Shown here piece by piece: positions 1 to 14,000 of a stretch of 33,131 nt of DNA. Position 1 is the stretch's first letter, and the number at the start of each line of letters is the position of its first letter. A program made the position numbers and the translations under genes. Origin of the DNA: Clostridia bacterium (GTDB taxonomy: Bacteria > Bacillota > Clostridia > Christensenellales > Aristaeellaceae). The DNA is taken from positions 1 through 33,131 of the forward strand of contig JAFQOD010000069.1 of assembly GCA_017395685.1 (NCBI GenBank). Direction: 5' to 3'. The notes below the pieces were generated by a model. That model saw only the letters and a list, made by a program, of their open reading frames with translations. It did no database searches and was not told the origin of the DNA.

Positions 1-1643
1 GCAGCTTCCTTCACTTTGCCGCCCAGGAAAGGCGTTTCGGCAAACTGATCATCACCAATCTTCAGAGAGGCGATCTTGCCTTCAGCATCCAGGGTAACTT
101 CCACATACACGGGGCCGGCATAGCCCTGAGCGGAGGCGGATTTCACATCCCCGGCAGGAGCGGCAGCTGCATCAGCACCGCAGGCGGCGTTGATGGCATT
201 GACCACAGCCTGGGAGGTGATGGTGGCATTGGCCACGGCGTCGATATCGCTGAGCGCAAGGGGAGGAACCTTACCGGTGAACTGATCGGTGAAGGCAGCT
301 TCCTTCACTTTGCCGCCCAGGAAAGGCGTTTCGGCAAACTGATCATCACCAATCTTCAGAGAGGCGATCTTGCCTTCAGCATCCAGGGTAACTTCTACAT
401 ACACGGGGCCGGCATAGCCCTGTGCGGAGGCGGACTTTACTTCCCCGGCAGCAGCGGCAGCGCCAGTGGTATTATCCTCAGCGGGAGCAGAGGGGGCAGC
501 ACCCTGAGACTGGGCAGCAATCTGCTCCACTGCGCTCTTGATGGCGCCGGAGGTAACCGTTGCGCCGGAAATGGCATCCACATTCTTGGCTTCATCAGCG
601 GTCAGGCCGATATACTGAATCAAATAAGCGGGTTCCTTGGCCTTGGCACCGAAACCATCGGTTTCCTTGAACTGATCATTGCCGATGGAGAAATAGCTGA
701 TCTTGCCCTGGGCGTCAAAGGCGGCTTCCGCATATACGGGGCCGGCGAAGCCCTGGGCAGAAGCGCTGTAAATCTGTACGCCTTCAGGCTTTTCGGGCAG
801 CACAATTTCATCCTCAGCACCGGGGAAGAGGATGCCCTTGGCATGATTGGCGGCGGTATTGACGGCACCGGCCACAGCATTGGAGGTAATGGTGGCGGAG
901 GTGATGGCGTCTACCGTGCTTTCAGTGGCCTTGCCGCCCGCCTTGATGACGCTGACAGGGAGAACCTTGCCGATGAACTGATCGGTGAAGGCGGAATCCT
1001 TGGCTTTGGCACCCAGACCGGCGGTTTCAGAGAAATTGCCGCCGCCCACGGAAATGCCGGTAAGGGTGAGATTGGTATCCACGCCAACCACCACTTCCAC
1101 CGGGCCGCCGAAGCCCTGAACGGTGGCCTGGGCCACATAGCCCACCACTTCTTCCCCCTGATAGCCGGCATAGCACCAATCCACCAGCACTTCTTTGGGC
1201 TGGGCAGCATTGACGGCGCTGATAACCGCATTGGAGGTGATGGTGGCGCCGGCGATCAGATCGATATCGCCGTCGGCCAGGGGCAGGGATTTGCCGATGA
1301 ATTGATCGGCAAAGGCGGGCTCCAGCGCCTTGGCGCCAAAGCCGGGGGTTTCAGCAAATGCGCTGTTGCCGATGGTGATAGAGGCGATTTTGCCTTCTTC
1401 ATCCGGCACATATTCCACATATACAGGGCCAGCAAAGCCATCCGCCTTGGCAGCATGCACATTCAGGGGCATCTCCTGAAAGGAATCGGCCAGGGGCAGC
1501 ACGGCCTTGCGGGCATTTTCAGCCTTCAGGGCATTCTGCTCATTGATGGGGTCGATGGTGAGGGCATAGGTGCAGCCCAACGCCAGCCCTGCAACCAGGG
1601 TGATGATGAGCAGCGCCGCCCAGCCGGGAAGTTGCTTCTTCAC
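1..1643 (-). CDS. RnfG-like membrane protein with at least five tandem FMN-binding domains (partial)
   Basis: My translation of the complement gives 547 residues before the window edge, so the C-terminus is missing. It starts at GTG 1643 behind AGGAGG. Residues about 8-28 are one membrane segment. The following stretch (DPINEQNA..ARKAVLP) resembles the N-terminus of RnfG/NqrC. Then come tandem FMN_bind domains at about 65-150, 165-268, 288-378, 400-488 and 498 onward. Each complete one ends in a flavinylation-like motif: GATITS (Thr134), SATITS (Thr251), SGATVTS (Thr362) and NATITS (Thr474). In NqrC/RnfG this threonine carries FMN attached by ApbE, and an ApbE gene lies two genes upstream in the same operon. 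Inferred role: an extracytoplasmic multi-flavin electron carrier. An Ala/Pro/Ser-rich linker lies at about 379-399. No Rnf partner genes are visible, so it is not a standard RnfG. Confidence 0.85.
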   Translation of the reverse strand, partial: MKKQLPGWAALLIITLVAGLALGCTYALTIDPINEQNALKAENARKAVLPLADSFQEMPLNVHAAKADGFAGPVYVEYVPDEEGKIASITIGNSAFAETPGFGAKALEPAFADQFIGKSLPLADGDIDLIAGATITSNAVISAVNAAQPKEVLVDWCYAGYQGEEVVGYVAQATVQGFGGPVEVVVGVDTNLTLTGISVGGGNFSETAGLGAKAKDSAFTDQFIGKVLPVSVIKAGGKATESTVDAITSATITSNAVAGAVNTAANHAKGILFPGAEDEIVLPEKPEGVQIYSASAQGFAGPVYAEAAFDAQGKISYFSIGNDQFKETDGFGAKAKEPAYLIQYIGLTADEAKNVDAISGATVTSGAIKSAVEQIAAQSQGAAPSAPAEDNTTGAAAAAGEVKSASAQGYAGPVYVEVTLDAEGKIASLKIGDDQFAETPFLGGKVKEAAFTDQFTGKVPPLALSDIDAVANATITSQAVVNAINAACGADAAAAPAGDVKSASAQGYAGPVYVEVTLDAEGKIASLKIGDDQFAETPFLGGKVKEA

Positions 1644-1745
1644 GAAAGTTCCGTCCTCCTTAATGCGCAGGAAAGCGCGCATATGGTATTCATCCGGATT
1701 ACCATCCGGGGGAGCATAAGGGGCAGCCGCCCCCTGGAAATAGAA

Positions 1746-2144
1746 TCAGATATCGGGCAGATCGGGGGAAGGGGTGCGGTCGGTAAGCACCAGCTCTACC
1801 TGCACTTCATTATGGGCGCAGATGACCCTTGTCCCCAGGGCCCGTTTATCGTAATTATCCACCGTCACCTGGCCCTGCTGGATACACTGCTGGGTGATGC
1901 AGGTGGATTCTTTCATATAAAAACCATTTTCCATCAGATGCAGGATATTGGTTTTGCCGTCAGGCTGGGAGATGGCGACATCCCTTTCCATCAGCAATTC
2001 TTCCTGGGAATGCAATTGACCGCTGATATAAATGCGCACCAGGCCGTTGGGGGCCTTTCCCAGCAGGGTTGTCTGAGAAACGATGATCAGGATGCAGGCG
2101 ATAATCACCACGCCCAGAATCAGAAAAATATTCTTTTTGCTCAT
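1746..2144 (-). CDS. NusG domain II-containing membrane-anchored protein
   Basis: The protein has 132 residues with an N-terminal membrane anchor (about 5-24) and an extracytoplasmic domain of the NusG_II type. It keeps the cysteine pattern of that family: STCITQQC near residues 81-88, then VICAHN near 107-112. Such proteins commonly sit beside ApbE, Rnf subunits and FMN_bind proteins in Firmicutes, but their biochemical role is not established. The gene starts 9 bases after the ApbE gene behind AGGGGG and is followed by the multi-flavin gene, so the three are probably one transcript. The 100-base gap to the next gene contains short inverted repeats (GGGGC-AGCC-GCCCC at 1720-1733, ATGGTA/TACCAT at 1683-1705) that could affect RNA processing. 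Confidence 0.8.
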   Translation of the reverse strand: MSKKNIFLILGVVIIACILIIVSQTTLLGKAPNGLVRIYISGQLHSQEELLMERDVAISQPDGKTNILHLMENGFYMKESTCITQQCIQQGQVTVDNYDKRALGTRVICAHNEVQVELVLTDRTPSPDLPDI

Positions 2145-2153
2145 GGCGCCCCC

Positions 2154-3203
2154 TTACCTGGAGGTGGCGCCCATGGACCGGGCATATTTTGCCATCCCGT
2201 CGCTCATCAGTACCGTGCCATCCATCAGGGACCAGATGGCTTCCGCCCCTTCCGTTGCTTCAATCAGCGCCCTGCCCTCTTCATAGGGCATGAGGAAGAG
2301 GGTAGTGGACAGATAATCGGCCAGCAGGGAGCTTTCGCATACCACCGTTACCGCCTGGATATGCCGGGCGGGCATCAGGGTGGCGGGATCGATGATGTGA
2401 TGATACCGTTCCCCATCCACCGTATAATAGCGCCAGTAATCACCGCTGGTGACCACTGTCAGCTGATCGACATACAATACTTCCAGCATGCCGCTGAAAT
2501 CATCAGGATCCTGGACGCTGACGCCCCAGTGGAGCCGGCCGTCCCGGGGAGGCTCGCCGGCGATGACATTGCCCCCCAGACTGAGCAGGAAGGAGGGCAT
2601 TTTTTCCATCAGGGATGCGGCGGCAAGATCGGCGGCATAGCCCTTGGCCACAGCGCCGATATCCAGTTTCAGCAGGGGATCGGCAAAATAGACCGTCCGC
2701 TTTTCGTGATCCAGAATGACTTTGGAAAAATCGGTATGCTGTGCCGCTTCTTCCAGGGCAGCCATGGGAGGCAGCTGGGCATTCAGGGGATCCTCAATTC
2801 CGGCAGTACGGAAATCATGCCACAGGGACAGCACGGCGCCCATGGCGATATTCGCGCCCTCTTTTCCATCCGCCCATTGCTCCTTGCACCAGACGATCAG
2901 ATCAAAGAGGGGGGCGGGGATTTCCACAGGCTCTTTGGCGGCATGGGCATTTACGTACCAGAGATTGTGCAGATTGGGATAGGAATTATAGGCGTCAAAG
3001 ATGCGGTGATAATCCCGCAGCTGTGCCATCACCTCATCAGCGGCCTGATTGAATTCATTCTGATCTTTTGTATAGCCGATCAATTGGATTTCTGTATCAA
3101 AAATGCCATAGGCCACACGGCTGAATTTGGCATATTCCTCTGCGGTGGTACAGGCCGGGCATGCAAGCATCAATGCGGCCAGCAGGCAGATCCATTTTTT
3201 CAT
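2154..3203 (-). CDS. apbE: ApbE-family FAD:protein FMN transferase
   Basis: This is a 349-residue exported protein. ApbE enzymes transfer FMN from FAD onto a Ser/Thr of target proteins outside the membrane, using Mg2+. Family signatures are present: GAVAKGY (about 183-189), LGGN (209-212), HHIIDP (268-273) and ADYLSTTLF (295-303). The usual PxTGxP is PATLMP here. An upstream ATG at 3269 exists, but it lies only 10 bases after the predicted transcription start and precedes the signal peptide. I therefore chose ATG 3203, which opens directly on MKKWICLLAALMLAC, a signal peptide that may be a lipoprotein signal. The ribosome binding site there is weak. It is first in the operon with the NusG-II and multi-flavin genes, which supply its likely substrate. 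Confidence 0.9.
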   Translation of the reverse strand: MKKWICLLAALMLACPACTTAEEYAKFSRVAYGIFDTEIQLIGYTKDQNEFNQAADEVMAQLRDYHRIFDAYNSYPNLHNLWYVNAHAAKEPVEIPAPLFDLIVWCKEQWADGKEGANIAMGAVLSLWHDFRTAGIEDPLNAQLPPMAALEEAAQHTDFSKVILDHEKRTVYFADPLLKLDIGAVAKGYAADLAAASLMEKMPSFLLSLGGNVIAGEPPRDGRLHWGVSVQDPDDFSGMLEVLYVDQLTVVTSGDYWRYYTVDGERYHHIIDPATLMPARHIQAVTVVCESSLLADYLSTTLFLMPYEEGRALIEATEGAEAIWSLMDGTVLMSDGMAKYARSMGATSR

Positions 3204-3285
3204 CCACTCAACCAACTTTCCAGATCCATTTTTACATTTCAAAGAGGAAAAACATGCAAATGTGCACACTTTTCCACTTTCATTT

Positions 3286-3314
3286 ATTATAACAAAGATG
3301 TATACTTAATTCTG
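3286..3314 (-). promoter_or_regulatory. Promoter of the apbE / multi-flavin operon
   Basis: On the minus strand the -10 box is a perfect TATAAT (bases 3291 down to 3286). At 17 bases the -35 position reads CAGAAT (3314-3309), unlike TTGACA. The missing -35 and the palindrome centred 29.5 bases upstream of the -10 suggest an activator-dependent (class II) promoter. Predicted start is near 3279. Confidence 0.65.
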
Positions 3315-3329
3315 TGATGCGAGTCACAG
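3312..3329. promoter_or_regulatory. CRP/FNR-type operator shared by two divergent promoters
   Basis: The sequence CTGTGA-TGCGAG-TCACAG is a perfect palindrome matching the TGTGA-N6-TCACA consensus of CRP-type proteins. Its centre (3320.5) lies exactly 29.5 bases from the upstream edge of both the minus-strand -10 (3291) and the plus-strand -10 (3350). That places it at -41.5 for both predicted start sites, the classical class II activator position. The neighbouring regulator has a CRP-like recognition helix. Confidence 0.75.
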
Positions 3330-3355
3330 AAAATTACAGGCAATTCGTGTATACT
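3327..3355 (+). promoter_or_regulatory. Promoter of the CRP-family regulator and antiporter operon
   Basis: The -10 box is TATACT at 3350-3355. The -35 position 17 bases upstream is CAGAAA (3327-3332), far from consensus. Predicted start is near 3362, with the operator at -41.5. This suggests the regulator activates its own operon. Confidence 0.6.
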
Positions 3356-3415
3356 GTCTTCGCCTTGCAATAAGGTTATTTAACATGTAGAAATTTTTCA
3401 GAACGGAGGGTTTGC

Positions 3416-4078
3416 GTGGATATCTCTGCCCAATTGCAGAAATTGCCGTTTGCCTCGTTTGCTACGGAAGAAGAGATGAGAATCGCCGCCCAGTATGCCT
3501 ATCTGATGTCATTTTCCAAGGGGGAAGTGGTGCATGCCCGTTCCCAAGGCGATTGTCTGGGGGCGGTGATGGTGCTTTCCGGTTCCTTGTGCGCATCCAT
3601 GATTTCAGATGACGGAAGGCAGATTATGCTCTATCGGCTGCAAAAAGGGGAAACCTGCGTTTTTTCCGCCCAGTGTGTGCTGAATCTGCTCAGCTATGAA
3701 GCGGTGGTGGAAGGGGAAGAGGATGGCACGGCGCTGGTTGTGCCTGTAATTGCCCTTAGTGTCATCATGAAAAATGTGCATGTGCAGAATGCCATGATCC
3801 GCCTGGCGCTGAAGCGCTGCTCCCAGATCATGCATTCCCTGGAGAGCGTATTATTCAGCCGGGTGGACAAACGGCTGGCACAATGCCTGGTGCGGGAAGC
3901 AGAAAAGCATGGAAAGATGGAAGTGCATCTTACCCATGAGCAGCTGGCCCGGGATATTTCCTCCGCCCGGGAAGTGGTCAGCCGCACCCTTTCCCGTTTT
4001 ACCAGGGAAGGGCTGATTCAGGTGGGGCGGGGCGCCATTATCATTCTGGATCCGGAAGGATTGAAAGCATACAAATAA
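3416..4078 (+). CDS. CRP/FNR-family transcriptional regulator
   Basis: The protein has 220 residues, the usual length for the family: an N-terminal cyclic-nucleotide-binding-like beta barrel (about 10-120), a dimerisation helix (about 122-160) and a winged HTH (about 165-212). The recognition helix SAREVVSRTLSRF has Arg185, Glu186 and Arg190 spaced like the CRP residues that read TGTGA, and TGTGA/TCACA boxes occur nearby. There are six cysteines (47, 59, 81, 87, 135, 157). The C81-x5-C87 pair lies in a GETCVFSAQC stretch of a kind I recall from clostridial relatives, but there is no classical N-terminal FNR iron-sulfur motif. The effector is unknown; redox or a metabolite are both possible. 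Start is GTG 3416 behind GGAGGG. The antiporter operon starts 38 bases downstream, so the two are probably cotranscribed. Confidence 0.88.
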   Translation: MDISAQLQKLPFASFATEEEMRIAAQYAYLMSFSKGEVVHARSQGDCLGAVMVLSGSLCASMISDDGRQIMLYRLQKGETCVFSAQCVLNLLSYEAVVEGEEDGTALVVPVIALSVIMKNVHVQNAMIRLALKRCSQIMHSLESVLFSRVDKRLAQCLVREAEKHGKMEVHLTHEQLARDISSAREVVSRTLSRFTREGLIQVGRGAIIILDPEGLKAYK

Positions 4079-4116
4079 TCGCCGCATCTGACGGCGGAAA
4101 CAGAGGGGAAAGCCTG

Positions 4117-4581
4117 ATGGCAATATTGATTTATGGGTTCTGGCTGGTGCTCAATGGGCGCCTGACCGGGGAAATTATGCTCCTTGGCATCCCGGTGATG
4201 GGGATTGCTATGCTGTTTGCGTGCAAATTCTGCGATTGGTCCCTGAAAAAGGAATGGGGATTATACCGATGCATCCCGCTGCTGATTGCCTATATGGCTG
4301 TGGTAGTATGGGAAATCATCAAGGCCAATCTGGCGCTGACCCGGGTGGTTTACCGCAAGCAGCCACAGCCTGTGGTCTGCACCGTCCAGACCAAGCTGAA
4401 AAGCCGGATGGCCCGGATGCTGCTGGCCAATTCCATCACCCTCACCCCCGGTACCATCACCCTGACCTTAAAAGGGGATGAACTGACCATCCATTGCCTC
4501 ACCCCCGAAATGGCGGAGGGGCTGGATCAGACGGTATTTGAAAAACGACTGCAGAGAATTGAGGAGGTGCTCCATGGATAA
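4117..4581 (+). CDS. mrpE: Mrp-type antiporter subunit E (MnhE/MrpE; Mbh subunit A equivalent)
   Basis: The 154-residue protein has two or three N-terminal membrane segments, the family-typical stretch AVVVWEIIKANLALTRVVY, and a soluble C-terminal domain with LLANSITLTPGTITL. MrpE is a small accessory subunit of multisubunit cation/proton antiporters and of the ion-pumping half of Mbh hydrogenases. It is the first gene of the ten-gene membrane operon. Its ribosome binding site (GAGGGGA) lies in the 38-base gap after the regulator gene, and its end overlaps the next start by 8 bases. Confidence 0.92.
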   Translation: MAILIYGFWLVLNGRLTGEIMLLGIPVMGIAMLFACKFCDWSLKKEWGLYRCIPLLIAYMAVVVWEIIKANLALTRVVYRKQPQPVVCTVQTKLKSRMARMLLANSITLTPGTITLTLKGDELTIHCLTPEMAEGLDQTVFEKRLQRIEEVLHG

Positions 4582-4879
4582 TGCGTATGCATATCTGATC
4601 CAGGGGGCCATGGCCATCCTGGGGCTTGCCCTGTTTGTATGCCTGTTCCGGGCGGTAAAGGGGCCTTCCACTTCTGACCGCATCATTGCCGTCAACATGA
4701 TCGGCACCATTACTATGCTGCTGATTGTGCTGCTGGCCCTTCTGATGAAGGAAGGGTATCTGATGGATATCGCCCTGATTTATGCCATGCTCAGCTTCCT
4801 GGCGGTGGTGCTGCTGTGCAAGATTTATATCGGCATCCACCGGGCGAAAAAGGAAAAGGAGGAAAAGCAGAATGTTTGA
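4574..4879 (+). CDS. mrpF: Mrp-type antiporter subunit F (MnhF/MrpF)
   Basis: The 101-residue protein has three predicted membrane helices and the family pattern FRAVKGPSTSDRIIAVNMIG near residues 25-44. I chose ATG 4574 because it overlaps the mrpE stop and follows GAGGAGG. An upstream in-frame ATG would run far into mrpE and add a hydrophilic leader. The C-terminus is short and highly charged (RAKKEKEEKQ). It overlaps the mrpG start by 8 bases, which suggests translational coupling. Confidence 0.92.
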   Translation: MDNAYAYLIQGAMAILGLALFVCLFRAVKGPSTSDRIIAVNMIGTITMLLIVLLALLMKEGYLMDIALIYAMLSFLAVVLLCKIYIGIHRAKKEKEEKQNV

Positions 4880-5195
4880 ATATCTTCGCTTTGGCCTCTT
4901 TGCTCTGTTTCTTGTGAGCGGGCTTTTCATCCAGCTGACGTCGCTGATCGGCGTCAATCGTTTCCGTTATTCCATCAATCGCATTCATGCCGCCGGCATG
5001 GGGGATACCCTGGGGCTGCTGCTGATTTCTGTTGCGGCCATCATTTATACCGGGTTTGACGGAGTAACGCTGAAGATACTATTCATTCTGGGCTTTTTCT
5101 GGCTGACCAGCCCGGTATCCGGCCATCTGCTGGGCCGGCTTGTCAGCGAAACGGATGAGCATTTCCAGGCGGAGGCAGAAATATGGAAGCGCTGA
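4872..5195 (+). CDS. mrpG: Mrp-type antiporter subunit G (MnhG/MrpG)
   Basis: The 107-residue protein has three membrane helices. The family hallmark is present at about 31-47: YSINRIHAAGMGDTLG, followed by a TSPVSGHLLGR stretch. ATG 4872 lies inside the end of mrpF. The gene overlaps the following MbhD-like gene by 13 bases. The order E-F-G at the front of an operon matches Mbh/Mbx-type clusters; classical Mrp operons run A-B-C-D-E-F-G. Confidence 0.92.
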   Translation: MFEYLRFGLFALFLVSGLFIQLTSLIGVNRFRYSINRIHAAGMGDTLGLLLISVAAIIYTGFDGVTLKILFILGFFWLTSPVSGHLLGRLVSETDEHFQAEAEIWKR

Positions 5196-5455
5196 ATGTG
5201 ATTTTGCTGATTTTTATTCTGGTATGCGCCATTGCGGTGGGCCGGGCCAAGAGCCTGCTGGCCTCGGTAATCATTTTCATGTCCCAGGGGCTGGCCATGT
5301 CCATCGTGTGGATTTTGCTGCGCTCCCCCGATCTTGCCATTACGGAGGCGGCGGTGGGCGCAGGCATTTCTTCCATTCTGATGTTTGTTGCGCTCAAAAA
5401 GATCCATGCCATTAAGGAGGAGGGGGCCAAAGAGGATGAAGAAGCACAAGAGTGA
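5183..5455 (+). CDS. MbhD-like subunit (DUF4040; equivalent to part of the MrpA C-terminus)
   Basis: The 90-residue protein has three membrane helices and the conserved SPDLAITEAAVGAGISS segment (about 49-65) of MbhD/DUF4040. In canonical Mrp antiporters this segment is fused into the long MrpA protein; in Mbh complexes it is a separate subunit, as here. The C-terminus is an acidic charged tail. The gene overlaps mrpG upstream and the MbhE-MrpB gene downstream by 20 bases. Confidence 0.88.
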   Translation: MEALNVILLIFILVCAIAVGRAKSLLASVIIFMSQGLAMSIVWILLRSPDLAITEAAVGAGISSILMFVALKKIHAIKEEGAKEDEEAQE

Positions 5456-6386
5456 CGCCCTGGCCCGCCTGAAAAACTGGCTGGAATACGGGGATGATCC
5501 ACTGGAGGTGGAAATGGAAGAGGCGCTGGGAGAGGAAGAGGCGCCCCCCATTCCCGCAGAGGAGGATGCCCCGGAATGGGAGGAAAGGGAAGATCGAAAG
5601 GCCCTGGCGCCAAAAAAAGAAAAGCATCCCCTGTATGATAAGGTATACCGCATTGCGGCTGAGGTGATCAGCCTGATGCTGATCGCAGTGCTTTTATATG
5701 CTGCCGTCCACATGCCCAATTTCGGCGGCGCCGATACATTGGTGAACAGCGAGGTATCCGCCTTCTATGTGGAAAATACGCTGGAGGAAACGGGCGCTGT
5801 CAACATCATCACCGGGATCATTCTGGATTACCGGGGATTTGATACCCTGGGCGAATCCCATGTGTTGTTCATCGGTATCTGTACGGTGCTTTTGCTGATG
5901 AGCATCAAAGGGGAGAAGGATGAGGAACAGCGTATTTTTGAGGATGCCTATGACCGGCATTTTGAGCCGCGGCATGATGAAATCCTGCAGACGGCCACCC
6001 GCATTCTCACTCCCCTGATTGTGGTCTTTGGCATTTATATCATTGTCAACGGCCATCTTTCTCCCGGCGGCGGCTTCTCCGGGGGTGCAGTGCTGGGTGC
6101 TGGGCTGATTTTGTATCAGAATGCCTTTGGGTATCTGAAGGTGGAGCGGATTTTCACCTTCCGAACCTTTAAGTGGGTTTCTGCATGTTCCCTGCTTTTC
6201 TATTCCCTGGCGAAGGGATACCATTTCTTCACCGGGGCCAATCATCTGGAAAGCGGCATTCATCCCGGGGTGGCAGGCAATATCTTTTCCGCCGGGCTGC
6301 TTTTGCCCCTGAATGCAGTGGTGGGCCTGGTGGTGGCCTGCACCATGTATGCATTGTATACCATGTTCAGAAGGGGGGATTTCTGA
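5436..6386 (+). CDS. MbhE-MrpB fusion subunit with an acidic N-terminal extension
   Basis: The 316-residue protein has three parts. Residues 1-75 are hydrophilic and strongly acidic (runs such as EMEEALGEEEAPP), with no recognised domain. Residues about 78-165 match MbhE, including ILDYRGFDTLGESHVLFIG. Residues about 185-316 match MrpB/MnhB, including the characteristic GHLSPGGGFSGGAVLGAGLIL. In Mbh clusters these are usually two genes (MbhE and MbhF). The start is ATG 5436, shortly after AAGGAGGAGG; an upstream in-frame ATG at 5385 is possible but sits well inside mbhD. Its TGA shares a base with the mrpC start. Confidence 0.88.
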   Translation: MKKHKSDALARLKNWLEYGDDPLEVEMEEALGEEEAPPIPAEEDAPEWEEREDRKALAPKKEKHPLYDKVYRIAAEVISLMLIAVLLYAAVHMPNFGGADTLVNSEVSAFYVENTLEETGAVNIITGIILDYRGFDTLGESHVLFIGICTVLLLMSIKGEKDEEQRIFEDAYDRHFEPRHDEILQTATRILTPLIVVFGIYIIVNGHLSPGGGFSGGAVLGAGLILYQNAFGYLKVERIFTFRTFKWVSACSLLFYSLAKGYHFFTGANHLESGIHPGVAGNIFSAGLLLPLNAVVGLVVACTMYALYTMFRRGDF

Positions 6387-6760
6387 TGCTGCAATTGCTT
6401 TATGAGCATATTGATGTGGTGGTGGCCCTGGCCCTGTTCGGCATTGGATTCACCCAGCTGCTGCTCAATAAAAACCTGATCAAGAAGATCATCGGCTTTT
6501 CCATGATGGATAGCGGTATTTATCTGTTCCTTGCATCCTACGGCTATATTGAATCGAGGATCGCCCCCATCTATGTGGAGGGCAATACCGATCCTTCCCT
6601 ATATGTCAATCCCCTGCCTGCCGGCCTGGTGCTCACCGGCATTGTGGTTTCGGTCAGCGTAACCGCTGTGATGCTGGGGCTGACGGTGCGGCTGTATCAG
6701 AGGTATCACACCCTGGATATTGATGAAATTGCTGAGCTTGTAAGAAAAGAGGGGAAATAA
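6386..6760 (+). CDS. mrpC: Mrp-type antiporter subunit C (MnhC/MrpC, NuoK-like)
   Basis: The 124-residue protein has three membrane helices related to NuoK. The family segments GIGFTQLLLNKNLIKKIIGF (about 20-39) and NPLPAGLVLTGIVVSVSVTA (about 80-99) are clear. The start overlaps the preceding stop as TGATG, so translation is probably coupled. It ends two bases before the first large antiporter subunit. It fits the conserved B-C-D order seen in both Mrp and Mbh complexes. Confidence 0.93.
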   Translation: MLQLLYEHIDVVVALALFGIGFTQLLLNKNLIKKIIGFSMMDSGIYLFLASYGYIESRIAPIYVEGNTDPSLYVNPLPAGLVLTGIVVSVSVTAVMLGLTVRLYQRYHTLDIDEIAELVRKEGK

Positions 6761-6762
6761 AT

Positions 6763-8256
6763 ATGCAGCTGTGGCAGAATCTTCCCCTTGTGATGATCGT
6801 GCTGCCCCTGATGTGTGCGGTGCTGTGCTCAGTACTGCGCAAAGGGGCCGCCCGGGGGCTGATGACGGGGCTTTCCCTGTTTTCCGGCCTTTCCATGGGG
6901 ACGCTTTTATATCTGGTGGCCCAGCGGGGCGAAAGCTATATCTATGTAATGGGGGAAATCGGCGCCCCCTTTGGCAATGAACTGCGCATCGGCATAACGG
7001 AATGCCTGATCGGGCTGCTGTTTTGCCTGGTGCTGATCTGTTCCATTCTGGGGGGATGGCGAAGGCTTTCCCAGGAAGTAGCGGAAAACAGGATGCATCT
7101 GTATGGATCCATGGTATGCCTGCTCATTTCCGCCATGATGGCCATCACCTTTACCAACGACCTGTTTACCGCCTATGTATTCATTGAGATTACCACCATC
7201 GCCGCCTGTGCGCTGATCTGCTCCACCAACAAGGGACGCACGCTCTTTGCGGCCACCCGGTATATGATCATGAATCTGCTGGGCAGCGGCCTGTTTTTGC
7301 TGGGCCTTTCCATTCTGTACTGCCTGACGGGGCATCTGCTCTTTCCCCAGATTGAGGAAAGCGTGACCGCCCTGCTGGCCGACGGCAGATATGCCATTCC
7401 CCTGGCGCTGGCCTGTGTGCTGATGACCATGGGTATCGCCTGCAAAAGCGCCCTGTATCCTTTCCATACCTGGCTGCCCAATGCCTATGCCAGCGCCACA
7501 CCCACATCCAGCGCGCTGCTTTCCTCCATGATTTCCAAGATGTATATCTTCCTGCTGATCAAGATTTTCTTCCGGGCGGCGGGAAGCCTGGTCTTTGCCC
7601 GGGGCATCGGGGATATCCTGTTTGTATTTTCCATCGTGGGCATTATTCTGGGCTCTGTGGACGCCATCCGGGAGCATCATTTCAGCCGGATGATTGCCTA
7701 TTCTTCCGTATCCCAGATCGGCTATATCTTCCTGGGTATTTCCCTGGGAACGGAGGCCGGTATGGCGGCGGCGCTGTTCCATATCCTGGCCCATTCTGCG
7801 GCCAAATCCATGCTGTTCCTTTCCGCCAATAAGCTGAGGGAAGTGTCCGGCGACAGCGACGCTTTCCGGGATATCCGGGGCTCGGGTCTGCGTGCGCCCC
7901 TGGCCGGTGTGGCATTTGCCATCGGTGCCTCCTCGCTGGTGGGCATTCCGCTGCTTGGCGGCTTTACCTCCAAGGTATTTCTCTCCCAGGCCGGTATAGA
8001 GCTGGGGGGGTGGCGGATGGTAACGCTGCTGCTGGCGCTGGCGCTGAGTACAGCGCTGAACGTAGCCTATCTGCTTCGCACCACCATGACCCTATACCGC
8101 CCCGGTGAGCGTTATCCCCTGACCCGCTCCCCCCTTGTGAAGGATAAGCCCTTCACCGCTGCCATGCTGGCGATGATTGCCGTCAATGTGGCGCTGGGCA
8201 TCTGGGGCGGCCAGGTGATGGATCTGATTTACAAAGGCATTGCCATGTTCAATTGA
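6763..8256 (+). CDS. mrpD: Proton-translocating antiporter-like subunit 1 (MrpD/MbhH type)
   Basis: The 497-residue polytopic protein belongs to the NuoL/M/N-MrpA/D family (about 14 helices). Residues of the proposed ion pathway are all present: Glu142 in the FIEI segment, Lys228 in ACKSALYPFHTWLP (with His235), Lys259 in MISKMY and Lys404 in GGFTSKVFL. Its place directly after MrpC makes it the MrpD/MbhH equivalent. It is the first of four such subunits in a row. Start is ATG 6763 behind GAGGGGAAA. Confidence 0.9.
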   Translation: MQLWQNLPLVMIVLPLMCAVLCSVLRKGAARGLMTGLSLFSGLSMGTLLYLVAQRGESYIYVMGEIGAPFGNELRIGITECLIGLLFCLVLICSILGGWRRLSQEVAENRMHLYGSMVCLLISAMMAITFTNDLFTAYVFIEITTIAACALICSTNKGRTLFAATRYMIMNLLGSGLFLLGLSILYCLTGHLLFPQIEESVTALLADGRYAIPLALACVLMTMGIACKSALYPFHTWLPNAYASATPTSSALLSSMISKMYIFLLIKIFFRAAGSLVFARGIGDILFVFSIVGIILGSVDAIREHHFSRMIAYSSVSQIGYIFLGISLGTEAGMAAALFHILAHSAAKSMLFLSANKLREVSGDSDAFRDIRGSGLRAPLAGVAFAIGASSLVGIPLLGGFTSKVFLSQAGIELGGWRMVTLLLALALSTALNVAYLLRTTMTLYRPGERYPLTRSPLVKDKPFTAAMLAMIAVNVALGIWGGQVMDLIYKGIAMFN

Positions 8257-8283
8257 TTTCAGGGAATGAAGGGAGAATTACAA

Positions 8284-9741
8284 ATGAACATTTTGCTGCT
8301 TGCGCCCATCCTGCTGCCCATTTTGCTGGGCCTCGGCTGGTATGCATTGAAATTGAAGGGGAAGGCGCTGCATGCCGCTTCCTTTATCACCATTCTGGTT
8401 TCTGCCGTGCTGGCCGTACTGGCGGCGGTGGCAAAGGGAGCGGGGGAAATCTGCCTGCAGTGGACGGATACCCTGTCCCTTACTTTGCGGGTGGATGGCA
8501 TGAGCCGCATTTATCTCATCCTGGTATCCGTGATCTGGCCGGGGGTTGGCCTGTATGCCGCGGAATATCTGGAGCATGATAAGCGGCCGGAAAGATTTTT
8601 CCTTTTCTATACCATTACCCAGGGCATTCTGTACGCCCTTTCCATGAGCGGCAATCTGGTAACCTTCTATATGTTCTATGAAGCCATGACCCTGCTTACC
8701 GTGCCCCTGGTGCTGCATAACCGGGATAAGGAAGCGGTGGCTGCCGCCATCAAGTATCTGATTTATTCCGTTATCGGCGCTTCTGCTGCCTTGGCCGGCA
8801 TCTTCTTTGTAGGCTCTCTGGGCTCCGGGGGGGATTTTGCCGCCGGTATCATTACTGCCGAGCAGCTGGCCGGCAAGGAAGGCCTGGGCATGGCGATTTT
8901 CATGGCCATGCTGGTGGGCTTTGGGGTAAAGGCGGGCATGTTCCCCCTTCACGGCTGGCTGCCTACTGCCCATCCTGTGGCTCCTGCCCCTGCCAGCGCC
9001 GTGCTTTCCGGCGTGATCACCAAAATGGGCGTGCTGGGCGCTGCCCGGGTGATTTATTCCGTTGCCGGGGTGGAACGGCTCCGGGGCACCTGGGTGCAGA
9101 TGGTGCTGCTGGGGCTGTCCCTGCTCACCATCCTGATGGGCTCTTTGCTGGCCTTTAAGGAAAAGCGGCTGAAGAAGCGGCTGGCCTATTCCTCCGTATC
9201 CCAGGTATCCTATGTGCTCTTTGGCCTGTTCACCATGACGGAACTGGGCTTTGTAGGGGCCATGCTGCATGTGATCTTCCATTCCCTGATGAAGAATACC
9301 CTGTTCATGGGCGCCGGCGCCGTCATCCACAAGACCGAAAAAACCAGGGTGGAGGAAATGGACGGCCTGGGCCGCCGGATGCCCTACACTTATGTATTTT
9401 TTACCGTTGCCTCTCTGGGCCTGATCGGCATTCCGCCCACCGGCGGCTTTGTGAGCAAGTGGAACCTGGCGGAGGGTGCCCTGGCCACCGGGCTGAATAT
9501 CAGCTGGGTGGGGCCGGTTGCGCTGCTGATCAGTGCGATCCTGACCGCTGCCTATCTGCTTACCATCGTCATCCGGGGCTGCTTCCCCGGTGAGGATGTA
9601 AAGCCCGGTCCCCGGTGTGAAGCGGGCTGGCGGATGCTGGTTCCCATGGCGGTATATGCGGTGCTGATTGTGGGCCTGGGTATGTTCTCCGGTGGGCTGG
9701 TAAGCTATCTGGAGCAGCTGGCGGCCGTGTTCATGGGCTGA
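8284..9741 (+). CDS. Proton-translocating antiporter-like subunit 2
   Basis: The 485-residue polytopic protein is in the same family as its neighbours. Visible ion-pathway residues are Glu133 (FYEAMT), Lys216 (FGVKAGMFPLHGWLP, His223), Lys247 (VITKMG) and a Lys in GGFVSKWNL. I chose ATG 8284, the start of the hydrophobic N-terminus behind GGGAGA; an ATG at 8266 adds only six hydrophilic residues. Its sequence differs enough from subunit 1 that it is not a recent copy. It resembles NuoM/NuoN-like or MbhH-like proteins, and I cannot say which partner complex it belongs to beyond this operon. Confidence 0.88.
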   Translation: MNILLLAPILLPILLGLGWYALKLKGKALHAASFITILVSAVLAVLAAVAKGAGEICLQWTDTLSLTLRVDGMSRIYLILVSVIWPGVGLYAAEYLEHDKRPERFFLFYTITQGILYALSMSGNLVTFYMFYEAMTLLTVPLVLHNRDKEAVAAAIKYLIYSVIGASAALAGIFFVGSLGSGGDFAAGIITAEQLAGKEGLGMAIFMAMLVGFGVKAGMFPLHGWLPTAHPVAPAPASAVLSGVITKMGVLGAARVIYSVAGVERLRGTWVQMVLLGLSLLTILMGSLLAFKEKRLKKRLAYSSVSQVSYVLFGLFTMTELGFVGAMLHVIFHSLMKNTLFMGAGAVIHKTEKTRVEEMDGLGRRMPYTYVFFTVASLGLIGIPPTGGFVSKWNLAEGALATGLNISWVGPVALLISAILTAAYLLTIVIRGCFPGEDVKPGPRCEAGWRMLVPMAVYAVLIVGLGMFSGGLVSYLEQLAAVFMG

Positions 9742-9751
9742 GGGAGGAAAT

Positions 9752-11203
9752 ATGCTGCTGTTGATTTGCGGCCTGACGCCGCTGATTCTGGGAGGGGCGC
9801 TTCCCTTCCTGAAGATCAGGCAAAGAAGGAGCAGGATGATTTATGTGGTGGCAGGTACTCTGCTTACCTCTCTGCTCTGTGCAGTGCTGATCTTCTCTGA
9901 AAAAGAGCATACCCTGGAATTGTTCCGGGTAACGGATCTGCTCACCTGCCGGCTGCATCTGGATGGGGCGGGCAAGGTATTTCTGGCGGTGGCGGCGCTG
10001 CTCTGGCCCCTTGCCGCCTTGTATGCCACGGAGTATATGCGCCATGAGAAGCGGGAAGGAAATTTCTTTTCCTGGTATATCATGACTTATGGGGCGGCGA
10101 TCCTCTTTTCCGCTGCCGCCAATCTGTTTACCCTGTATATTTTCTATGAGCTGCTGACCCTGATCACCCTGCCCCTGGTGCAGCATGAAAGGGATAAGGC
10201 CTCCATCCGGGCGACCCGCCGATATATGCTCACCCTCATTGGCGGGGCGGCCCTGGGCTTTATTGCATTGATTGGGCTTTCCTTCTTCGGCGCAGGGGAT
10301 TTCATTCCCGGCGGCAAGGAAATTGCAGGCGGCAGCACATGGGTGCTGTGGCTGTGCATGCTGGGTTTTCTGGGCTTTGGCGCCAAGGCTGCGGTATTTC
10401 CCTTAAGCCGCTGGCTGCCCTCTGCGTCCGTGGCTCCTACACCGGTAACGGCGCTGCTGCATGCGGTGGCGGTGGTCAATGCCGGGGTATTTGCGGTTAC
10501 GAGGCTGCTGTATTACACGGTATCGCCTGCCCTTTTGCAGGGCACCTGGGTGCAGAGCACCATGATGATCCTGAGCATGGGCACCATCCTGATGGGCTCT
10601 GTCATGGCGGTACGGGAGCAGCATCTGAAAAAGCGGCTGGCCTGGTCCACAGTGAGCAATCTGAGCTATATGCTCTTTGGCCTTTCCATGCTGACGGAAA
10701 AGGGCATGGCGGCAGGCCTTGGGCATATGGTTTTCCATGGCCTGATGAAAATCATCCTTTTCTTCTGCGCCGGGGCTATCCTGGTGCAGTCCGGGCGTAC
10801 CCAGGTGCGGAAAATGCATGGCATGGGCAGAAAGATGCCCCTCACCTTCGGCGCTTATCTGCTGGCCGGTGCATCCCTGGTGGGCGTTCCGCCCCTGCCC
10901 GGGTTTATCAGCAAGAATTACCTGGAAACAGAGGCCTTTTCCCTGGGCGGCGCTCTGCCCATTGCCGGGGCGGTGATTCTGCTGATGTCCTCGGTCCTGA
11001 CGGCAATTTATATTTTCACGGTGGCATTCCCTGCCTTCTTCATGCGGCTCAATCCCGCTGATGGGGAAGGAAAATTCCAGGATCCCGGTGCAGCCATGAA
11101 GGTGACCTTCGTGGTGCTGTGCGCGCTGCTGATTGCGGCGGGCATCTGGGGCGGCGATGTCATCCGATATCTCAACGGCATTGCAGGAGGCATCCTTTCA
11201 TGA
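9752..11203 (+). CDS. Antiporter-like subunit 3, with ion-pathway residues altered
   Basis: The 483-residue polytopic protein is in the NuoM/MrpD family and most like subunit 2 (shared pattern YATEY, FYELLTLITLPLVQHERDK). Glu133 and Lys212 are retained, as is a Lys in PGFISKNYL. The family histidine in PLHxWLP is replaced: the segment reads PLSRWLP (Ser219, Arg220). The helix-8 lysine is also replaced: AVVNAGV has Asn243 where relatives have VKAG. This may be a structural subunit with reduced or changed proton transfer. It starts 10 bases after subunit 2, and its stop overlaps the next start. Confidence 0.87.
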   Translation: MLLLICGLTPLILGGALPFLKIRQRRSRMIYVVAGTLLTSLLCAVLIFSEKEHTLELFRVTDLLTCRLHLDGAGKVFLAVAALLWPLAALYATEYMRHEKREGNFFSWYIMTYGAAILFSAAANLFTLYIFYELLTLITLPLVQHERDKASIRATRRYMLTLIGGAALGFIALIGLSFFGAGDFIPGGKEIAGGSTWVLWLCMLGFLGFGAKAAVFPLSRWLPSASVAPTPVTALLHAVAVVNAGVFAVTRLLYYTVSPALLQGTWVQSTMMILSMGTILMGSVMAVREQHLKKRLAWSTVSNLSYMLFGLSMLTEKGMAAGLGHMVFHGLMKIILFFCAGAILVQSGRTQVRKMHGMGRKMPLTFGAYLLAGASLVGVPPLPGFISKNYLETEAFSLGGALPIAGAVILLMSSVLTAIYIFTVAFPAFFMRLNPADGEGKFQDPGAAMKVTFVVLCALLIAAGIWGGDVIRYLNGIAGGILS

Positions 11204-13356
11204 TTGCAAGCATGCTGATTCTGCCCCTCATCGGGGCAGTGGCCGCGCCCCTGATGGGGAAGAAGAGCGGGAAACTGCGGGGCATCTGCCTGCGTATGTT
11301 CACCCTTGTGGAAATGGCGCTGGCGCTGGGGCTGTTCCTTGGGGTGCTGCAGGGAAAGGAATTTTCTCTTTCCCTGCCCGGCATGTGCGGCCTGGATTTA
11401 TCCTTCCGGGTGGATGGCTTCCGGGGCCTGTATGCGCTGATTGCCGCCTTCATGTGGGCAATGACGGCCCAGTTTTCCAAGGAATATTTCAATCACGGAG
11501 AAAATCACGGCCGATACGCCTGTTTTACCATGATCACCCTGTGTGGCGTGATGGGCGTATTCTTCTCTGACGATCTGTATACTACGTTTGTTTTCTTTGA
11601 AATCATGTCCATTGCCTCTTATCCCTGGGTGGCCCATGAGGAAACCAAGGGCGCCATGCGGGCGGCGGCCACTTATCTGGGGGTATCCATTGCCTGCGGT
11701 ATGGTGACGCTGATGGGCATGTTCCTGGTGTGGCATGAGATCGGGGATCTGTCCTTTGCGGCGCTCAGGGCGAATAACGGAAATGCCGCCCTGGTGCTGC
11801 CCGCTTGCCTTACCCTGGTGGGCTATTGCGCCAAAGCCGGCCTTGCTCCCTTGCATATCTGGCTGCCCAAGGCCCATCCCGTGGCCCCGGCCCCGGCCAG
11901 TGCGCTTTTGTCCGGTATGCTGACTAAAACGGGCCTGTTCGGCGTGATCGCAGTGGCCCTCAATCTGATGGGCGAAAATCAGATTTTCGGGCATATCATG
12001 CTGGGCCTGGGGCTGTTTACCATGCTGCTGGGTGCGGTGCTGGCGGTATTTTCCATCAATCTGAAGCGGACGCTGGCATGCTCCTCCCTTTCCCAGATCG
12101 GATACATTACCACCGGCCTTGCAAGCGCCGTGATCCTGGGCCATCATGGATCGCTGGCTGCGGCGGGCGCAGTGGGGCATATGATCAATCATTCTCTGCT
12201 GAAGCTGCTTTTGTTCATGGCAGCCGGCGCTGTTTATATGAATACCCATACCCTGGATCTTTCCGCCCTGCGGGGCTACGGCCGGGGGAAGAAGCTGCTG
12301 CATGTGCTGTTCCTCATTGGCGCCCTTGGCCTGATGGGCGTACCCGGCATCAACGGCTATGCTTCCAAGACCATGATTCACGAGGGCCTGGTGGAAATCG
12401 TGCATGAATTCCACGGGGTGATCTGGTACAGTGTGGCGGAATGGGTCTTCCTGTTTGCGGCAGGGCTGACCACCGCTTACATGCTCAAGCTGTATATCTG
12501 CCTGTTCTGGCAGAAGAATCCGGATCAGAAGCTGCAGGAAAAATACGACGCCCTGAACGGCCGGGATATGACGAAGCGATCCGCCATCGCCCTGATCCTT
12601 TCTGCCATTCCTGTGGTGATCCTGGGCATACTGCCCAATCAGCTGCTGATGCCCCTTACCCGGATCAGCGCCCATTTTTTGAATCATCACGAGCAGGGGG
12701 ATGTGCATTTCTTTGCCTGGGTGAATCTGAAGGGCGGGCTGATTACCCTGGTGATCGGCACCGTGGTGTATCTTTTCTTCGTCAGGAAGGTATTGTACAA
12801 AAGAGAAAAGGGATATCTGGATCGCTGGCCCAAAGGGCTGGATCTGGAGGAAATCTTCTATCGCCCGGTGTTCTGCCGTTTCCTGCCCTGGCTGGGATGC
12901 GGTATTGCTTCCTTCTTCAATGGGATTCCTGACAGCAAGCTGATTCAGGTGTATATTCCCAGGGTGATCAGCGGCTTTCTTTCCTTCCTGGACAGGCTGC
13001 CGGAAAGCCGCCTGTTTACCAGGGGGCTGCCCGGGGTGATCGTGGGCATTACCCGTGTATTCGATGAACTGGTGGATCACGCCATGCTGGTGGGCCGGGA
13101 AATTTTCCTGGTAAACCGCAGGGAACTGCGCCGGGCCAGAAACCATAATATCTTCACCTATCTGGCCAGCGTGATTGCGGAAGGCATCCATAAGATGATC
13201 CGCTTCCTGCTGCCCAACCGCTGGCTGCCTCACCGGGCGCCTACGGATATGCGGTACGGCACTTATGTAACCAATGCCATTTCCTTTGGCCTGCTGCTGT
13301 GTGCATTGGGCATTGTGGCGGCAATTATCTACGTGTTTATCCGTACAGGAACTTAA
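11200..13356 (+). CDS. NuoL/MrpA-like antiporter subunit 4 with a long C-terminal extension
   Basis: The 718-residue protein has the antiporter core in residues 1 to about 480 and a C-terminal extension ending in a membrane helix. The extension alternates hydrophilic and hydrophobic segments and may be a NuoL-like lateral arm. Key residues are Glu134 (FFEIMS), Lys212 (CAKAGLAPLHIWLP, His219), Lys243 (LTKTGL) and a Lys in NGYASKTM. The ATG 11200 start overlaps the preceding TGA and follows AGGAGG; a longer reading from 11119 would lie inside the previous gene. It is the last gene before a terminator, and no NuoB/C/D/H/I or hydrogenase gene follows. Confidence 0.88.
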   Translation: MIASMLILPLIGAVAAPLMGKKSGKLRGICLRMFTLVEMALALGLFLGVLQGKEFSLSLPGMCGLDLSFRVDGFRGLYALIAAFMWAMTAQFSKEYFNHGENHGRYACFTMITLCGVMGVFFSDDLYTTFVFFEIMSIASYPWVAHEETKGAMRAAATYLGVSIACGMVTLMGMFLVWHEIGDLSFAALRANNGNAALVLPACLTLVGYCAKAGLAPLHIWLPKAHPVAPAPASALLSGMLTKTGLFGVIAVALNLMGENQIFGHIMLGLGLFTMLLGAVLAVFSINLKRTLACSSLSQIGYITTGLASAVILGHHGSLAAAGAVGHMINHSLLKLLLFMAAGAVYMNTHTLDLSALRGYGRGKKLLHVLFLIGALGLMGVPGINGYASKTMIHEGLVEIVHEFHGVIWYSVAEWVFLFAAGLTTAYMLKLYICLFWQKNPDQKLQEKYDALNGRDMTKRSAIALILSAIPVVILGILPNQLLMPLTRISAHFLNHHEQGDVHFFAWVNLKGGLITLVIGTVVYLFFVRKVLYKREKGYLDRWPKGLDLEEIFYRPVFCRFLPWLGCGIASFFNGIPDSKLIQVYIPRVISGFLSFLDRLPESRLFTRGLPGVIVGITRVFDELVDHAMLVGREIFLVNRRELRRARNHNIFTYLASVIAEGIHKMIRFLLPNRWLPHRAPTDMRYGTYVTNAISFGLLLCALGIVAAIIYVFIRTGT

Positions 13357-13373
13357 AAATAGAAAAAATATCC

Positions 13374-13421
13374 AAAAGGGGCCGGAAATGTGACTAAGTC
13401 ACAGTTCAGGCTCCTTTTTTT
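13374..13421 (+). terminator. Intrinsic terminator of the antiporter operon
   Basis: The outer stem AAAAGGGGCC (13374-13383) pairs with GGCTCCTTTT (13409-13418, one G-T pair). The inner stem GAA/TTC and TGTGACT/AGTCACA continue it to a one-base tip, and a run of seven T follows. The gene stop is 18 bases upstream. The apex of the hairpin is the TGTGA/TCACA palindrome annotated separately. Confidence 0.85.
13389..13403. promoter_or_regulatory. Second TGTGA/TCACA palindrome (possible CRP-family box)
   Basis: TGTGACT-A-AGTCACA is a perfect 15-base palindrome (TGTGA-N5-TCACA, one base shorter than the box at 3312). Its centre lies 30 bases upstream of the TATAAT of the flavoprotein gene, so about -42 from the predicted start. 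It is also the apex of the terminator hairpin, so the symmetry may exist only for termination. Confidence 0.5.
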
Positions 13422-13425
13422 CGGG

Positions 13426-13431
13426 TATAAT
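13426..13431 (+). promoter_or_regulatory. -10 box of the secreted flavoprotein gene
   Basis: A perfect TATAAT sits here. At 17 bases upstream the -35 position reads AGTTCA, which is not a good match. With the palindrome at about -42, the arrangement copies the two divergent promoters near 3300. Predicted start is near 13438, and the gene starts at 13491 after AAGGAG. Confidence 0.6.
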
Positions 13432-13490
13432 CTATTTGAAACTTCCTGACAAAAAAGGAAGAAAAAAGAAAACAAGGAGAAAAACGACAA

Positions 13491-14000
13491 ATGAAGAAAC
13501 TGCTTGCCCTGACCCTGGTTCTGTGCTGCTTTGCCAGCGTTGCCCTGGCGGATACCTACGGCCTTGGTGTATACACCGTTGTGAGCGGCGCCCAGAATGC
13601 CACCGCTGAAAAGAACGGCCAGTATGAAGTGCTGTCCAATGTGTGCTCCCTGGTGCTGGATGACAACGGCGTGATCAAGGATGTATGGTTTGACGTTGCC
13701 CAGACCAAGGTTGGCTTCAATGATAAGGGCGAAGTAACCACTGAAAAGGGCACCATCGTAAAATCCAAGTTCGAACTGAAGGAAGGCTATGGCATGAGCA
13801 CCTATGCCAAGACCAATGAATGGTATCTGCAGGCCCGGGCCCTGGAACAGTACTGCATCGGCAAGACCGTTGCTGAAGTGCTGGCCACTCCCCTGACCGC
13901 TTCCGGCGCCCCCGATGTGGCTGATCTGAAGACCAGCTGCACCATCGGCGTATCCGATATGCTGCTGGCGCTGGTGCAGGCTGCCACCAATGCCCGCTGA
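13491..14000 (+). CDS. Secreted PplA-like FMN-binding-type protein
   Basis: The 169-residue protein has a signal peptide ending ALA-DT at residues 20/21 and no lipobox. The mature domain resembles single repeats of PplA/pheromone-type flavoproteins of Firmicutes: GLGVYTVVSG, LDDNGVIKDVWFDVAQTKV, a KSKFELKEGYGM segment, EWYLQARALEQYCIGKT, and a C-terminal DLKTSCTIG (Asp145-Thr151). That last motif sits where ApbE-type flavinylation motifs occur, but it has Cys where the usual motif has Ala. In the Listeria system PplA carries FMN and takes part in extracellular electron transfer. Inference: a second ApbE substrate. It has its own promoter and terminator and may share control with the apbE operon. 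Homology is judged by eye. Confidence 0.7.
   Translation: MKKLLALTLVLCCFASVALADTYGLGVYTVVSGAQNATAEKNGQYEVLSNVCSLVLDDNGVIKDVWFDVAQTKVGFNDKGEVTTEKGTIVKSKFELKEGYGMSTYAKTNEWYLQARALEQYCIGKTVAEVLATPLTASGAPDVADLKTSCTIGVSDMLLALVQAATNAR

Follow-up and report, generated by a model that had tools for sequence, protein, structure and literature searches.

Rnf complexes carry electrons from ferredoxin to NAD+ with ion pumping. Here, we report a locus from a member of the Aristaeellaceae (Clostridia bacterium; GenBank assembly GCA_017395685.1) at which apbE, a NusG domain II gene and a multi-FMN (flavin mononucleotide) gene, most likely rnfG, stand divergently to a CRP/FNR-type regulator gene (crp) and a ten-gene Mrp-type operon. 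The window, meaning the whole stretch of DNA analyzed, is the complete 33,131-bp contig JAFQOD010000069.1 (C68) of a 2.83-Mb genome in 79 contigs (G000; the own genome below). Open reading frames (ORFs) and Pfam and NCBIfam searches across positions 1 to 14000 returned the gene set listed in a first-pass annotation: ApbE, NusG-II, a multi-FMN RnfG-like protein, a CRP-like regulator, ten Mrp/Mbh genes and a secreted protein (Table 1).

Table 1. Features in positions 1 to 14000 of the window
Feature	Position	Strand	Evidence and remarks
RnfG-like protein, N-terminal part; membrane anchor (by eye); 4 whole FMN_bind domains and a partial 5th; runs off contig end	3..1682	-	PF04205, 4 stretches and cut 5th; TIGR01947 rnfG
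NusG domain II protein	1746..2144	-	PF07009, 29.7 bits (cut-off 29.6)
ApbE flavin transferase, probable signal peptide	2154..3203	-	PF02424, E 4.4e-59; start codon and signal peptide by eye
Predicted extended -10 (TGTTATAAT), rnf operon promoter	3286..3291	-	21 bp from box 1; conserved in G121 and G122
Box 1, TGTGATGCGAGTCACA, putative operator common to both divergent promoters	3313..3328	.	Centre 41.5 bases from each predicted start
Predicted -10 (TATACT), crp-mrp operon	3350..3355	+	21 bp from box 1 in all three genomes
CRP/FNR-family regulator	3416..4078	+	PF13545, E 2.5e-18; cNMP_binding below cut-off
MrpE/MnhE	4117..4581	+	PF01899
MrpF	4574..4879	+	PF04066
MrpG/MnhG	4872..5195	+	PF03334
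MbhD-like subunit	5183..5455	+	PF13244
MbhE-MnhB fusion subunit	5436..6386	+	PF20501 and PF04039
MrpC-like subunit (NuoK family)	6386..6760	+	PF00420
Antiporter-like subunit 1 (MrpD/NuoN type)	6763..8256	+	PF00361; NCBIfam best PRK12662
Antiporter-like subunit 2	8266..9741	+	PF00361, PF00662
Antiporter-like subunit 3	9752..11203	+	PF00361
Antiporter-like subunit 4 (HyfB/MbhH-like), C-terminal extension of ~200 residues	11200..13356	+	PF00361; NCBIfam best PRK06521; 6cfw chain H
Terminator-like hairpin 3' of mrp operon, encloses box 2	13374..13418	+	22-nt arms, 86% complementary, 1 nt apart
Box 2, TGTGACTAAGTCACA, putative operator of secreted-protein gene	13389..13403	.	N5 spacing kept in G122 (record SIG363) and G121; TATAAT 20-22 bp downstream
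Predicted -10 (TATAAT), secreted-protein gene	13426..13431	+	
Secreted single-domain FMN-bind-like protein, variant motif DLKTSCT	13491..14000	+	

The multi-FMN ORF runs off base 1 of the contig and matched the rnfG model TIGR01947 at 203.2 bits (cut-off 102). A second contig of the own genome (C5) ends, on the corresponding side, within a near-identical FMN repeat, and its ORF there holds five FMN_bind stretches and is followed by rnfC, rnfD, rnfE, rnfA and rnfB (NCBIfam scores: rnfC, 489.4 with a cut-off of 245.95; rnfD, 313.2 with 207.05; rnfB, 118.4 with 68.7); C5 encodes two PF02508 (Rnf-Nqr) proteins. The two contig ends share ~44 identical bases in one run inside the repeat (counted by eye), and the FMN domains cut there cover profile positions 1-34 and 27-76, which fits one broken domain. 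Joined, the own rnfG would carry nine FMN domains, or more if repeats were lost. The genus group comprised 29 genomes, 28 of which yielded an ApbE locus; among the 17 loci with contig sequence beyond rnfG, 16 have rnfC directly after it, and the remaining 11 of 28, among them the window, lie on contigs that stop short of rnfG, within it or 20 bases beyond it. The multi-FMN protein is thus most likely the RnfG of an Rnf complex and not the free-standing flavin wire that had been proposed for it.

The Mrp operon encodes six small Mrp/Mbh subunits followed by four antiporter-like proteins. All ten ORFs were assigned by Pfam, none of them to a redox subunit or to a [NiFe] hydrogenase catalytic or small subunit, and the families of subunits B, C, D, E, F and G are complete. 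In canonical Mrp systems, MrpA is one fused subunit, and Mrp antiporters carry two antiporter-like subunits. The E-, F-, G-, B-, C- and D-type subunits are shared with Mrp antiporters and the Mbh arm; as in the latter, MbhD and MbhE (the MbhE+MnhB ORF) are separate and unfused to an antiporter domain, and the best solved relative of subunit 4 by sequence is 6cfw chain H (E 4.2e-52, residues 4-481). The operon differs from both in its four antiporter-like subunits, in lacking a single fused MrpA and in lacking hydrogenase genes. No functional study of a four-antiporter Mrp-type complex was found in the titles and abstract openings searched.

That the two operons are conserved neighbors, as had been supposed, holds within the genus: the Mrp operon starts divergently beside apbE-nusG-rnfG in 20 of the 28 loci, with crp between them in G000, G121 and G122. 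Two further loci on short contigs (G131 and G141) have antiporter genes next to apbE in a different order, and none lies beside apbE in G132 or G030, the contig of the latter reaching just ~2 kb before apbE. A NusG domain II protein was matched (tblastn) in all 27 other loci. In the ApbE tree, G132 and all loci carrying Mrp or antiporter genes together formed a 23-member group (support 100/99), within which identity to the window ApbE was 57-69%; four loci with the secreted-protein gene in place of Mrp formed a cluster of their own (100/99), apart from that group, and the split from the outgroup rows was weak (82/47). Most of this pattern is accounted for by a single insertion, or a single loss, in the space separating apbE from the secreted-protein gene. 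As separate observations, the loci of G141 (L193) and G131 (L198) carry reduced or rearranged antiporter gene sets, and an Hpre_diP_synt_I-family gene was matched between nusG and rnfG in five genus loci only (L106, L108, L199, L200 and L201, from G094, G030, G123, G124 and G129); all five are without Mrp beside apbE and stand together on the tree, and no match to this gene occurred in the loci of the 22 other genus relatives.

Matching control boxes, also claimed earlier, were real in the three crp-bearing species. The crp gene was detected in 3 of the 29 genus genomes (E ≤ 1e-6), with orthologues at 63 and 67% identity in G121 and G122, and has a Crp-type helix-turn-helix (PF13545, E 2.5e-18); TGTGA-type palindromes co-occur with it. 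Between apbE and crp, TTCTGTGA-N6-TCACAGAAAA is present in all three, its arms fixed and its central bases variable, and box 1 is the sole exact TGTGAN6TCACA in the own assembly. In each genome, exactly 21 bp separate box 1 from either divergent -10 element, which centers the box at -41.5 from both predicted starts. A site centered at -41.5 is in the class II activator position. When the flanks were shuffled, the observed geometry arose in 9 of 200,000 trials, and a laxer form (at most 1 mismatch each, spacing 20-22) in 167 of 200,000. A second box, TGTGAC-[AT]AA-GTCACA, precedes the secreted-protein gene in the same three genomes, with TATAAT 20-22 bp downstream, and none of 25 gaps from crp-less genus genomes held a box at up to 1 mismatch. 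The regulator may bind and activate at both boxes, which we regard as putative operators; the cNMP_binding model scored 21.3 bits against it, below the cut-off of 27.5, several Cys are common to the three orthologues, and a redox signal may be the one that it senses.

The reading of box 2 as a mere terminator stem was dropped, since two relatives (L126 and L180) keep the box without a GC stem. In the own genome, the putative operator lies inside the terminator-like hairpin that follows mrp (13374-13418), so that regulator binding and termination would use one sequence. One-mismatch N6 sites numbered 43 in the own genome, box 1 included (reversed-pattern control, 9); stretches with 22 of the 42 others were scanned for a wider regulon, and none had a TATAAT-like hexamer (at most 1 mismatch) 20-22 bp downstream. 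Besides box 2, the own genome has one exact N5 box, C16:6230, which falls inside an apbE gene. A scan of named genomes returned a single record, Clostridiales bacterium isolate SIG363.

The secreted protein, previously called a PplA-like flavoprotein, is predicted to have an FMN-bind fold, which is probable, with a variant attachment motif; the likeness to PplA did not extend to the NCBIfam model. Its DLKTSCT keeps the D, the T at position 4 and the final T of the ApbE attachment motif Dxx[S/T]GA[S/T] (PMC10339131, excerpt), with SC in place of GA. No NCBIfam match was obtained at E ≤ 0.001 (PplA model NF041941 included), no Pfam FMN_bind match and, with Foldseek alone, no PDB match at E ≤ 0.001; profile comparison with the RnfG FMN domains was weak (probability 4%), with the motif columns aligned. 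It resembles the FMN-bind2/PplA-type flavoproteins (PMC11334425, excerpt) as a secreted domain of ~160 residues, probably of FMN-bind fold, encoded near apbE; it differs from them in being a single domain with a genus motif of approximately D-x-K-[TA]-[ST]-C-[TS] and in matching neither Pfam FMN_bind nor the NCBIfam PplA model. Among the 35 family genomes with a homologue, 15 have it within ~2 kb of apbE (by eye). In one genome of another genus (G011; L109 6290-13925), the secreted-protein gene, apbE, two multi-FMN genes, a CRP-type gene and NusG_II form one cluster, and no Mrp match occurs on that contig stretch. An N5 box precedes the secreted-protein gene there, the nearest -10 candidates lying 19 or 26 bp away and not 20-22; this was the one box among ten such upstream stretches from outside the genus, the other nine having none. 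From the cluster and its box, the association of the regulator is stronger with the flavin genes than with Mrp.

Outside the genus, the antiporter operon was sought by its subunit 4 in 120 family genomes (five of the genus, the own included), of which 72 gave a match; the four-antiporter Mrp-type complex is common in the family. Loci of 36 relatives were fetched. Two were genus members with the paired locus (L050 and L051), one was G030 (L052), whose Mrp contig starts 96 bases before mrpE, and 33 were left from other genera; beyond mrpE, 27 of these 33 extend for 2 kb or more and four for less, and two have no mrpE. In those matched but unfetched genomes that were compared by eye, ApbE lay on another contig or far off. 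Redox partners of Mrp were sought outside the genus, and none was widely shared among the neighbor clusters. As side observations, the Mrp operon of G107 (L083) has two copies of antiporter subunit 4 and five antiporter-like matches in total, and G072 (L082), G035 and G097 have two antiporter-like matches only, possibly a different complex.

We read the locus, with a probability of roughly 0.58, as a two-part energy-conservation unit in which an Rnf complex with a long RnfG and a four-antiporter Mrp are under CRP/FNR-type control. Rnf, with its own ApbE and an RnfG of about nine FMN_bind domains, would oxidize ferredoxin and pump an ion, probably Na+. The extended RnfG would serve as a side path for electrons to extracytosolic acceptors, as proposed for long RnfG proteins (PMC8238504, excerpt), and the route outward may include two kinds of secreted protein, the small FMN-bind-like one and reductases of the flavocytochrome type. 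The ten-subunit Mrp would interconvert Na+ and H+ gradients so that Rnf and ATP synthase stay balanced, exchanging Na+/H+ to match changing electron flow, a role for which Mrp of Methanosarcina acetivorans is the precedent (PMC6703419, excerpt). The regulator, acting on the box between the operons and the box before the secreted-protein gene, would switch on all three jointly. Candidate electron acceptors are three flavocytochrome-c/fumarate-reductase-like proteins with FMN_bind and signal-like N-termini (by eye), on contigs C70 (L047 191-2092), C14 (L048 7061-9334) and C16 (L049 6435-9686). The proteins on C70 and C14 have NusG_II-like genes as neighbors, and the one on C16 has a second apbE next to it. 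A single ATP synthase c subunit was detected in the genome (L204 1435-1731); it has a second Glu and ETTGIY, which by eye match the two-carboxylate Na+ rotor positions of Fusobacterium nucleatum (PMC3692424, excerpt), with Thr replacing Ser66; the pattern suggests Na+ coupling.

Joining these parts into one unit, as the first-pass annotation had done, keeps its footing in the conserved genus neighbors and in the boxes at both operons and the secreted-protein gene of three species, and co-regulation in those species is its best supported part. It lost the wire, now corrected to RnfG, and a check of co-occurrence that succeeded inside the genus failed outside it: none of the 33 other-genus Mrp loci had a rnf, apbE, FMN_bind, nusG_II or crp match nearby (tblastn). 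The pairing therefore looks genus-specific, and Mrp in general appears not to depend on flavin partners. This weighs against the two-part unit, as do the following points. Four genus members (G094, G123, G124 and G129) have apbE-nusG-rnfG without adjacent Mrp, the secreted-protein gene and then a rhomboid gene taking its place, and in G094 no antiporter-4 match was found anywhere in the genome. In 26 of the 29 genus genomes no crp gene was detected, so shared control by it is not what holds the operons together, and box 1 (N6) and box 2 (N5) differ in spacing. The rnfG-rnfC join of the own genome is one that we infer, because the ends of C5 and C68 show no exact terminal overlap and have only the repeat run in common. 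In G136 (L185 14035-17671), the rnfG frame leads into transposase-like sequence (by eye) and unrelated genes, with no rnfC, through either an insertion or a misassembly. Full flavinylation of the own RnfG is uncertain, since six of its nine motifs depart from the SGAT type (window part, AGAT, TSAT, SGAT and ANAT; C5 part, four ANAT and one TNAT; DATSAAT linker stretches that the motif pattern also matched, three in the C5 part, were excluded by eye); many motifs of other genus RnfGs are AGAT, SGAT or TGAT. Na+ as the ion of Rnf and Mrp is likewise what we infer.

The best-surviving alternative, which we hold to be rather doubtful, is that the neighborhood reflects descent only: a single event would have put a self-standing Mrp operon into the space separating apbE from the secreted-protein gene, where it was retained with no functional coupling, the common divergent promoter being a convenience. 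The absence of rnf, apbE, FMN_bind and crp genes around all 33 other-genus Mrp loci (27 with at least 2 kb beyond mrpE) favors it, the four genus members with the secreted-protein gene directly divergent from apbE look as a pre-insertion state would, and few changes explain the tree; yet the pairing has been kept in 20 of 28 genus loci over deep divergence, and three species have one regulator gene with boxes for both operons. Appreciably less probable is that the Mrp operon encodes the membrane arm of an unrecognized redox complex, as in Mbh/Mbx, with Rnf or a distant redox module as its direct electron-input arm. Its subunits are Mbh-like (split MbhD/MbhE, and 6cfw chain H nearest to subunit 4 among solved chains) and its four antiporter-like subunits exceed the two of Mrp, but the ten ORFs include no hydrogenase or other redox subunit, and the largest neighbor clusters reach just 5 of 34 Mrp loci (the 33 and that of G030). 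A free multi-flavin wire to the cell surface, with no relation to Rnf, is very improbable: the contig ends within the gene, it is common for multi-flavin proteins to lack a known partner (PMC8238504, excerpt) and G136 lacks rnfC after rnfG, but the RnfG model was matched above its cut-off and rnfC comes next in 16 of the 17 loci long enough.

A bolder form of the two-part unit, in which the four-antiporter Mrp and an Rnf whose RnfG bears nine flavins make up one supercomplex or tightly coupled module, with Mrp matching outward electron branching to a Na+/H+ stoichiometry that varies and a single redox-sensing regulator in control, seems unlikely; if true, it would be a variable-ratio respiratory pump built on flavins, not on quinones or cytochromes.

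Multi-flavin RnfG is already published; the parts are known, and the arrangement is new and conserved in the genus. Meheust et al. (2021; PMC8238504, excerpt) described Rnf operons whose RnfG has several FMN-binding domains, with some cases in Christensenellales; the word "antiporter" does not occur in the main text of that study, whereas here a ten-gene Mrp operon is attached, with a CRP-type regulon in three species. In Methanosarcina acetivorans, Rnf likewise has an extracytosolic multi-cofactor branch, Mrp is important in Na+/H+ balance and the Mrp genes are highly expressed (PMC6703419 and PMC2838876, excerpts); in M. acetivorans, a multihaem cytochrome forms the branch, seven genes encode Mrp and the rnf and mrp clusters are described as separate, whereas here they form one divergent locus. 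No Rnf-Mrp locus was found in the titles and abstract openings of the literature, a search that did not cover subscription journals or supplementary tables. The locus would be a bacterial counterpart of the Methanosarcina Rnf-branch-Mrp system with flavins in place of haems; it suggests that the cell handles electron export and salt balance jointly and, for a clostridia-like genus about which little is known, ties flavin-based electron export to ion balance through a genetic link that can be tested.

A third palindrome in the window, TGTGACCCATCACA (N4; 30832-30845), lies within a lysyl-tRNA synthetase-like ORF (by eye) and is probably a chance occurrence.

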